Below are positions 16,347-20,687 of a DNA stretch of 64,000 nucleotides, one piece after another. Location of the stretch: assembly GCA_019775845.1 (NCBI GenBank), contig JADQAV010000018.1, positions 1,123,044-1,187,043 on the forward strand. The letters are read 5' to 3'. Numbering within the stretch: position 1 is the stretch's first letter; each line of letters begins with the position of its first letter. The stretch comes from Myrmaecium sp. VS I D KN 1. Lineage: Eukaryota > Ascomycota > Dothideomycetes > Valsariales > Valsariaceae. Below the pieces are notes generated by a model. It was given only the letters and a program-made list of their open reading frames with translations. It was not told the origin of the DNA and ran no database searches. A program made the translations under genes and the position numbers.

Positions 16347-19300
16347 ATGTTTCAAAACAGACCCTCGCACGTCAAGGACCCACGTACGCCGAAGAAGCGT
16401 CAACACGAGGCGATAAACGACATCGTGAGGGGCCTCTCAGCCGAGTATGGCCTGGAGTTCCAGCTTAGGGATTACAATTGGTCCCCCCATCAGAGCTGGG
16501 AGGAACCTCGGTTCTACAGCGCCATTCGGTTTCTATATTTCCAGTCCGTGCCGATCTCCGTGAGAAGTTGAAGCACTTCGAGGAGCACGACTTCAAGACG
16601 CAAGTCCTCCGCCATGAAGAACCGGGCGAGCGTCTGAAACGGCTGCTTGCCCAGCTGGATCCGTTGGTACAGGTATGCAAAGAGCGCATCAGGCAAGCCG
16701 GTCGAAGCCACCAGGAGACCTTGTTGAGTGCATCGCGTGCCGATAGGCAGTCCCGCGATGAGGCGTGGAATAGCTCACCGCCAGCTGCTCCAAGATTCCG
16801 TGAGGATGATCCTTGTACGTTCATTCTTCACCGCATCCTCCTATGTGCTCCTTCCTGGTTCGCACGAGCTCTGTAGCATTGTGTATATGTTAGAGGTGCT
16901 TCTGACGGCCGCACTTCACGATGCCCGCATACCCTCCCGTTACCATCATAATGAAGAGGCCTTCGAACTGACCTTATCTAGCCGAACAGCTGCTGAGAGA
17001 AGCCGGTACAGCTGGGTATGATCATAGCAGAGGCTCAGGATCGTCGACGGAAGATGGAGGGAGTGGTCAAGAAAACGAGGAGTTCAAGACTCCTCCTCAA
17101 TCACCGACTCCATCCGCCCGGAAAAATCCACCCCCAAGGAAGAGGAGGTCTTCAGGATCCATTGATCGAGAGAGAATCTCCCCGAAATTGTCGAGAACAG
17201 CTGGCTGGAAACAGTCTTCCGAGAAACTGGTGGCATCACCGCATCTACCTAGAACCGATTCCGTGCAACAAATGTCCCGCGGAACCTCGATGGCAGGGAC
17301 ATCGTTCCATCCCGTACAGCAGACGTCCCGCGGAACTTCGATGGCAGGGACGTCGTTCAATTCCACCACGACTGTGGCTACATCAGCTTCCTCCTTCATA
17401 GGATACCCTCGAAATGCGGACACACCTAATACGTCTTTTAACTCAGATGGCCCCGGCTATCCTGACCTAGCTTCCTTTCATCCTGATCTGGCGCCTGCTG
17501 TGCCTGCTCAAATCAACTCTTCTAAGAAGGGTTTCGTTGAAGCCAAGACAGAAACTAGTCTAGGTCAGAATGTAACGCGCACCAAGCATCAAGAAAAGGG
17601 TAGTCTGGCCACTGTCCAGAAGCCTCTAAATGGTGACAGCCCCAAAAAGCGAACCATGCAGCATCAAGTACGAGCCTTGCCGCACGACAATCTTTTCGTT
17701 CCGGATAGCCCAAAATCTCTTCACCGTGCTCCGTTTATTGTGCGTATGGAATGTCTCAGAGTGGCCTTGGCTAACAACATCTCTCAAGAAGATGTCGTTG
17801 GCGTCTATGACGATGGTTTCAGTTAGTATGATAACTTCTGGAGCTACGTGGAAGATAATCCGAAATGTGCGAAGCTGCCAAAGCGATCGCCAAAAGAAGC
17901 TTGGGAAGAAGGAACGTTGTTTCCCAATATGACCCTCAAAGCGAGCGTCGCCCTGAGCCAATCGAATGAAGGGCCCGTGTTTAAAATACAACTCGAGCCT
18001 TTTCAGTGGGAGGACTCGTGCAGGTTTCAGCGGGCCTTTGGTTCCGATAGATTCCTATATCTTACTGTGCCGACCTTCAGAAACATCCCCTGTCACAGCC
18101 ACATCTATGGTCAAAAAGACAATTTGACACTTCAGTACCTTGAGTGGTTGAAGGTTGAGCATACATTCCTAGGGCGGAAATGGAGAGCATTCCATGTAGA
18201 AACCTCGTCCAAGAAGGCTAGAGGACCAGGTCGTGAACCCGAAGTTTTCGACAGGGTTGTCCTGTTCGCAGTCAAGGGCTGCGATATACGTCCTCGGCTG
18301 CAAAGCAGGGTATCTTCATGCGATCCGAGTCCTGGCTCAACCAGATATGAAATGAGCGTCAAGGATCTCCTGAACTGGTTCATGGACCTTGACCTCAACC
18401 GTGGGCAGCCTTACTGTAAGGCATTCGCGAGACTCGACTTGGGATTTTCCAGAACCACACCAACGATAGTGTTCAAGCCATCTCAGGTGCGATACAAAGT
18501 TCAGGACCGTAAAGCGGACTCAAGCCCAGACGATACCTGAATTGATGACCCAAATCTGTCGTGGGCCCAGCCTCCTTGGAAGGACAGTATGCAGGATGGC
18601 TGCTCACGAATCTCTGTTGGGGCCCCGAAAGAGGTCTGGTCCATGTTCAAGCAGCCCGGTCCCATCCCGTCGGCGTTCCAGGCGAGGATCGGAGGCGCCA
18701 AGGGTGTTTGGATCCTGAGTGCGCCTTCGTCAACACTCGATTCCCGTCACACTGATATCTGGATTGAGGTCACGGAGAGCCAGTTGAAGTTCGAACGCCA
18801 TGAGGATGACAGGAACGAGCACACTTCCGACAGGCAGAGGCTGACGTTCGAGGTTGTTGGAAACAGTCAGCGACCTAGTGCATCCAGTCTGCATGTTTCG
18901 TTCTTGCAGATCCTGAAAGATCGTGGTGTGTCGCTAAAACAGATGGATACCGTCGTGAGGAGAGACATGGATGCCGAACGAGAGAAGATCCTGGAGGCTA
19001 TCGATGGCCCGCAGGAGCTGAGGAGCTGGATGTCCAAGGTGCAGTCCACCGCGGAAAAGATGCGGCGGAATTCTGTTGTCCCCATGGAGTCATCTCTTCC
19101 TCTATTCCTGGAAGATAAGATTACGCTCCTCCTTGATGCAGGCTTTGAGCCGAAGAAGCACACCTTCGTAGCTGAGTTGGTGTCTTTCCTCATAGACAGA
19201 TATCTTGAACGCATGCGCGTGAATCTCAAGCTGACGTTGAGCCGGTCGACGCATGTGTACGGTGTCGTAGACCTCTCAGGGGTGCTAAAGCCAGGCGAGG

Positions 19301-20687
19301 TTCAGTTGAGCTTCTCGTCGGTACAGCACAATGAGATTACGCAGGAGAGTTACTCTTACCTGGACGGTCAAGAGGTGCTTATAGCACGACACCCGGCGTT
19401 GAGACGATCGGATATTCAAAAGGTCAGGGCTGTCTTCCACAAAGAGCTCAGCTACTTAACGGATGTTGTGATTTTTTCTTCCACAGGCCCACTGCCAGAG
19501 GCTCATAAGCTTCAAGGAGGCGACTACGATGGTGACCGGTTCTGGATCTGTTGGGATCCGGACCTCACCAGGGGCTTTCATAATGCTCCAGCGCCCGTGA
19601 ACTCTCCGAAACCAGAGGAATACGGTATCAGAGTGGATCGAAGGACTTTGGGAGACGTATTGGTGCAAGATGGCGGTTCGGTCGATGAATACCTGCGTTT
19701 GAGCTTCGAGTTTAAGCGGCAACCTGAGCTTCTAGGCAAGGTCACCAATCTCCATGGAAAACTCTGTTATCACGCGAACAAGCTGGACTCCCCAACAATC
19801 AATGTGTTCAGCGATCTGCACGACCTATTGGTCGACTGGCGGAAGAATGGTTACGTGTTTGGCGACACCGAGTACAACAGCTTGTTGAAACGTTACGCGG
19901 TGAAGTCTAACCCACCACAGCCTGCGTACAAGAAGGCTTTGGAAGAAAGCGAGGACCGCAGCAAGCCAAAAGCGAAGAATCGTGGGCAAACGACGGTCAA
20001 GTTCAAAGCTGAGAATCTTATCGATCACCTTTTATTCGAAGTGGTGCAGCCTCACCACGAGGAGACTCAGAGGCGGCTGAAGCAAGCCTTGGCCAAACTA
20101 GGCGATTCCGACGATCGGGACTTGTGGCAGCCCTATATCAGCATCAACAAGCACTACGGGAGAGATCGCGTGATCCAGGCAGTTCTGGAAGCTCTCAGGG
20201 CCGAAAATCTCGGTCTCGAGAAGTTGTGGCTCGACATGCATCGCTCGGACTGGCGAAGAAGGGCAGAGATGCCTACAACGAGGAACTGGAGCGCCTGCAC
20301 CAGAAGTTCTACGCGTACCAGCCACGGTCCGAGCATCTTCAGCATCCTGTCGTGGCGGAGTGGGTGCGGCCGGCCGTGGAGGGCCCCCCGACCACGTGGG
20401 AGCTCCTCCGGGCATCCGCGCTCTTCAACAAGCACCACGGACGCACCTCCTTCGTCTTCACCCTGGCCGGCATGCAGCTGGCGCAGATCAAGGCGTTCAG
20501 CCGCCCGGGCACGCGATGCCTCACCGAGGCCGCGTGGGGCAACCTGAAGCCGCGCACGTTCCGGAGCAAGCGTGTCATCCATGGAAATGCGGAAGCGACG
20601 GTTGGCGGCGGGGACGACGCCGTCGATGATGATGATAATTCGGAAAATGAGAGCGTGTATGAGATCGCTCGATCGCAGTTGGGCTGA
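16347..20687 (+). pseudogene. Cellular RNA-dependent RNA polymerase (QDE-1 class), broken
   Basis: Homology to fungal RNAi RdRPs runs from MFQNRPSHVKDPR at 16347 to a stop at 20685. One intron, 16815-16981, is supported by phase. The catalytic loop is intact (GGDYDGDRFWICWDPD, around 19516-19563), as are blocks such as GCSRISVGAPKEVW and AFQARIGGAKGVWILSA. The frame is broken: near 16540 the coding frame changes by one base; an in-frame TAG at 17824 sits inside conserved sequence (ending VYDDGFS, resuming YDNFW); an in-frame TGA at 18538 follows PDDT; and near 20240-20260 the frame changes again before GLAKKGRDAYNEELE. I found no spliceable intron of normal size covering these points, although a 161-nt intron starting at 16384 could bypass the first one at the cost of conserved residues. 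A functional full-length enzyme is unlikely unless the assembly is wrong. Confidence 0.8.
17261..17358 (+). repeat. Two-copy 51-bp repeat inside the RdRP relic
   Basis: The segment starting at 17261 is repeated from 17312 with a few changes, giving two copies of the peptide pattern QQ-x-SRGTSMAGTSF in the linker before the polymerase core. It lies in the low-complexity Ser/Thr-rich part of the protein. Confidence 0.75.

Follow-up and report, generated by a model that had tools for sequence, protein, structure and literature searches.

The gene at positions 16347-20687 of the window (the whole 64,000-nucleotide stretch of Myrmaecium sp. VS I D KN 1 DNA that was analysed) raises a question of function: has a QDE-1-class RdRP been lost here, or are the interruptions in its reading frame introns, edited sites or faults in the sequence? 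The original prediction described a polymerase of this class with a preserved DYDGD loop, broken by two in-frame stops and two frame changes among neighbours that read cleanly. We put the probability that the gene is a loss-of-function RdRP copy at roughly 0.8.

Class and interruptions of the polymerase gene

The genome searched comprises 25.66 Mb in 66 contigs, and the window lies on contig C8. A single six-frame match to the Pfam RdRP profile (PF05183) spans window positions 17983-20043 with 401 bits; in two pieces of the gene the profile scores 306.9 and 85.8 bits. The sequence 5' of the TGA matches profile positions 5-153 (E 3.6e-24) and the sequence 3' of it positions 159-582 (E 4.1e-91), so that the two ranges are consecutive, and both flanking pieces match the solved QDE-1 chains 2j7n, 7y7p and 5fsw. 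The catalytic DxDGD loop is present, together with the double glycine that precedes it (GGDYDGD, 19516-19536). The invariant Q, K and K of DPBB1, as named in the available part of PMC1750930, are also present when aligned by eye with our own mapping.

Sequence comparison places the gene within the RdRP family. In a set of six sequences its polymerase part is 31.9% identical to both QDE-1s over 480 aligned residues, compared with 24.8% for the RdRP on contig C64 and 26.5% for that on C29. The RdRP on contig C35 is similarly close to QDE-1 (33.7% in the polymerase part; in the slab part, 26.3% against 28.4% for the window gene). It is the nearest paralogue found: 523 residues aligned with the window gene show 36.3% protein identity, and in a six-sequence tree these two genes group together with a local support of 0.895. 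One scan of viral_contigs returned no relatives of the window gene. Judged by its sequence, 16347-20687 is thus a cell-encoded RdRP of the QDE-1 class, and the profile match, the GGDYDGD motif and the identity to QDE-1 all uphold the class originally proposed.

The slab, the two double-psi barrels, the GGDYDGD loop and the C-terminal region are common to the window gene, QDE-1 of Neurospora crassa (2j7n, 7y7p) and the 5fsw QDE-1. Unlike these, the window gene is broken by stops and frame changes, and its slab match is separated from the M(N/Q)DG motif by a longer linker. The uninterrupted reading frame expected of a working QDE-1-class RdRP is absent. The features are collected in Table 1; they include one additional frame step that the original prediction did not list and that appears to be an ordinary intron.

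Table 1. Positions in the window of the gene's predicted parts, lesions and main candidate intron.
Feature	Position	Strand	Basis
Exon 1 (inferred), N-terminal region; holds first frame change	16347..16814	+	Codon log-odds by frame; no homologue
First frame change (approximate)	16530..16560	+	Best frame passes from codon start mod 3 = 0 to 2; codon statistics only
Ordinary intron (inferred), GTACGT..CTGAC..TAG, 167 bp	16815..16981	+	Splice signals and frame step
Exon 2: slab, catalytic and head regions preceded by a low-complexity linker; interrupted three times	16982..20687	+	Pfam RdRP, PDB QDE-1
In-phase 87-bp candidate intron ending exactly at the TAG, GTGCGT..CTAAC..TTAG, fair signals	17740..17826	+	Intron enumeration
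In-frame TAG	17824..17826	+	Frame carrying the RdRP match; flank tests
In-frame TGA	18538..18540	+	Pfam profile runs on across the stop
Catalytic loop DYDGD, kept	19522..19536	+	Aligned to QDE-1
Second frame change (approximate)	20219..20262	+	Codon log-odds and homology on either side

Both stops lie at the predicted positions, in the frame of the RdRP match. For the 40 residues 5' of the TAG (17704-17823), the alignment score was reached by none of 2000 shuffles against N. crassa QDE-1 and by 1 of 2000 against each of 5fsw and C35. The 40 residues on the 3' side gave no clear match (157, 315 and 1213 of 2000 shuffles against C35, N. crassa and 5fsw, respectively), and homology picks up again 34 residues past the stop (E 6.7e-34 to 5fsw). 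The surroundings of the TGA are weakly conserved relative to C35, with the score reached by 22 of 2000 shuffles upstream, 494 of 2000 downstream and 223 of 2000 for the linker.

To locate the frame changes we used codon log-odds, for which 49 long ORFs (33,903 codons) served as the training set. At the second, the score passes from +7.3 (codon start mod 3 = 1) to +7.1 (mod 3 = 0). The downstream frame, which is the last piece of the gene, matches C35 (E 7.5e-8) and, weakly, the QDE-1 C-terminus (E 0.0017). By reading, the window protein is about 12 residues longer than C35 at this point. At the first frame change, log-odds of +6.6 are followed by +7.9 in another frame; exon 1 yielded no homologue in Pfam or among the paralogues, and the best matches of the N-terminal region to the RdRP paralogues had E values of 0.17 and 0.30. 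The second predicted frame change is accordingly upheld by homology as well as codon statistics, and the first is suggested by codon statistics.

The gene therefore combines disabling lesions with a domain order and catalytic residues that are still recognisable, as is characteristic of a pseudogene. Translation from the 5' end would halt at or before the TAG, upstream of the polymerase domains, so that no enzyme would be made.

Splicing, editing and sequence accuracy

Rescue of the message at the RNA level would leave the gene functional. The TAG would be spliced out or else changed in sexual tissue through A-to-I editing, as in the pseudokinase gene puk1 of F. graminearum, the TGA would be dealt with likewise, and the frame steps would be removed by weak introns. 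We enumerated phase-compatible GT..AG pairs of 40-250 bp and called canonical those in which the donor was canonical and both a CTRAY branch and a YAG acceptor were present. No canonical intron was present among the 81 pairs over the first frame change, the 34 over the TGA or the 35 over the second frame change. Over the first frame change, the most convincing candidate (16560-16654) has a coding score of +8.7. The best in-phase candidate at the TGA, 18487-18570 (84 bp), also scores as coding, with +4.1 in the gene's own frame versus -1.8 and -1.9 in the others, and is unremarkable given that 54% of sampled codons have one as good.

Points in favour of rescue are found at the other two lesions. 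The TAG forms the exact end of an in-phase candidate intron whose signals are fair and which, on its sequence, could splice out this stop; a candidate as good or better was found for 3% of 362 sampled codons in the window gene and 0% of 269 in C35. It scores as coding (+3.1), but the 28 residues within it show a moderate match only (score reached by 11, 31 and 896 of 2000 shuffles against C35, 5fsw and N. crassa, respectively). The 40-residue stretch described above, which also takes in residues just 5' of this candidate, matches well (0 to 1 of 2000 shuffles). Over the second frame change lies a phase-compatible candidate of 56 bp (20213-20268), and the junction that it covers is non-coding in all three frames (-2.4, -0.5 and -3.9). 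Since its splice signals are poor (GTCTCG donor, GAG acceptor), an indel is likelier here than an intron.

Editing could act on the stops, but a frame change is not mendable by this route. Preferred A-to-I editing sites lie in loops and follow a U, and in the predicted fold the A of both RdRP stops is paired, outside a hairpin loop (by our own indexing). Correction of premature stops by editing, including UAG to UGG, is known in filamentous ascomycetes according to the available part of PMC7306014. Taken together, we consider RNA-level rescue of all four lesions unlikely.

The RdRP on C29 illustrates how introns look in a spliced gene of this family. We read three interruptions in it, each of which coincides with an intron; the donors are GTAAGT, GTAAGC and GTGAGT, and these introns, as read, show all three canonical signals. 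Because interruptions can be introns, we did not count an interrupted match alone as a broken gene.

Errors in base calling or assembly could also produce the lesions in a gene that is intact in the organism, and two of the four are frame steps, a usual type of error. The two stops, however, are not frame errors, and the sequence looks reliable. All 14 scored matches to AMP-binding domains, from 50 candidates, are free of stops, with open frames of up to 5,697 codons. Within the window, 8 of 10 scanned ORFs keep Pfam matches, including the adjoining TCTP and ELO genes. The earlier statement that neighbouring genes read cleanly holds at the level of these domains. In a protein-kinase control, 29 of 142 matches contained stops (127 of 150 candidates scored), a count in which introns and true stops are not separated. 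We regard sequence error as slightly less probable than rescue.

A blind scan for internal stops was less informative about the lesions and speaks to some extent against a loss. It covered 1300 candidates in 24 loci totalling 280 kb; seven of the loci (L007-L009, L041-L043 and the window) were a deliberate, non-random choice. Among the 1300, the two RdRP stops come 93rd and 140th, and in another blind scan the frame changes come 17th and 129th; these modest ranks can be attributed to the weak codon bias of the window gene and to introns that give similar signals. Besides the two RdRP stops, we checked by eye 11 of the top 25. One is the TGA of an Argonaute gene discussed below, three lie at intron donors by reading (L034 9064, L036 3834 and L037 6509), and the other seven were taken, without proof, for antisense shadows or chance.

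Cause and age of the probable loss

The original prediction had suggested that the stops could have arisen by C-to-T or G-to-A changes of the kind produced by repeat-induced point mutation (RIP). Three DNA-methylase genes (five Pfam matches) are present in the genome, and by reading one of the two stops has a dinucleotide context compatible with an origin by RIP. The dinucleotide counts of the gene are nonetheless ordinary: its product index (TpA/ApT) is 0.57, its substrate index ((CpA+TpG)/(ApC+GpT)) 1.22 and its composite index -0.66, compared with a genome composite mean of -0.57 (sd 0.27, 444 windows). Composite percentiles of ten 1-kb windows across the gene range from 5 to 77, and even the most RIP-like stretch (16347-16570) reaches merely -0.20. 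The usual cut-offs are passed by only 2 of the 444 windows, none of them in the gene. RIP does not cause frame changes, and with the nearest paralogue found just 36% identical in protein, a level too distant for RIP, inactivation by this process is highly improbable and the proposed origin of the stops was not borne out.

A rough model based on the stops alone, and assuming neutrality since the first lesion, equates the two stops with about 49-54 neutral substitutions, or 1.17-1.29% divergence (95% range 0.14-4.67%; three transition weights). With a central figure of about 50 substitutions and about 1.2% divergence (95% range 0.15-4.5%), the model agrees with the earlier impression of a recent event, and the loss looks fairly recent on this basis.

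Remaining silencing genes and comparable losses

The genome contains four RdRPs: the window gene, that on C64 (a 1,535-codon frame), the spliced gene on C29 and the QDE-1-class gene on C35. The last is uninterrupted, forming one frame of 1,103 codons (L008:3373-6684), so that the window lesions look like the unexceptional and fairly recent loss of a single member of the family. The persistence of a second QDE-1-class RdRP and of two further RdRPs may have relaxed selection on the window gene. The search for paralogues, Dicer and Argonaute that had been proposed as a check also recovered four Argonaute loci, three of which have no stop in the Piwi match, and three RNase III genes. Two of these last, each carrying a pair of RNase III domains within a single open frame, were taken as Dicer-like. 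In view of these genes and the uninterrupted C35 copy, the expectation that the loss would change small-RNA defence is weakened; any effect on silencing is likely softened by C35. Given the RNAi parts that are kept, the loss could show which silencing branch is dispensable when a second QDE-1-class copy is present.

The Piwi domain of the fourth Argonaute, on contig C10, is interrupted by an in-frame TGA (L043:4117, minus strand), and Piwi sequence flanks this stop on either side. This TGA ranks first of the 1300 stops in the coding-potential scan of 280 kb. It has no phase-compatible canonical intron, and the two canonical-looking introns that cover it break the frame; a second stop in the gene sits in a canonical intron (GTGAGT..CTGAC..ACAG). 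In the predicted fold the A of the TGA is unpaired, in a bulge (own indexing). A PDB search with a 64-residue piece of this Argonaute returned nothing at E 1e-5. Joint decay of an RdRP-Argonaute silencing branch in this lineage, involving the window gene and the C10 Argonaute, is a tentative idea that we think improbable, if less so than rescue or error at the RdRP; a parallel break in the Argonaute, if true, would make such co-decay testable.

Decay of RdRPs in ascomycetes is already described, and the window gene adds another case of RdRP turnover. The available part of PMC4182546 reports four RdRPs in Cryphonectria parasitica, with rdr1 and rdr2 in the QDE-1 clade and rdr4 an RdRP pseudogene. 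The present genome resembles it in its count of four RdRPs, with a pair in the QDE-1 clade and one gene broken. The broken gene differs, since rdr4 belongs to the RRP-3 clade and shows truncation and alternative splicing, whereas the window gene belongs to the QDE-1 clade. A further parallel is the QDE-1 orthologue of Aspergillus nidulans, cited in the discussion of PMC4182546 as apparently degenerated. The parts of the literature examined, including the available parts of PMC4182546, PMC4290597, PMC7763443, PMC7306014 and PMC1750930 and with most subscription literature outside the coverage, gave no other report of a broken QDE-1-clade gene. Against this background, the window gene stands as a clear case in which one QDE-1-class RdRP appears to have been lost recently.

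According to the available part of PMC4290597, RdRPs number two to five in Pezizomycotina, and 83.33% of the fungal RdRPs analysed there have a glycine pair before the loop. By reading, C35 has N in place of the first of the two glycines preceding its DYDGD loop. On contig C34, one Dicer-like gene (a 1,434-codon frame, L041:1791-6092, minus strand) lies 4.5 kb from an Argonaute Piwi match (L042:579-1550, plus strand).
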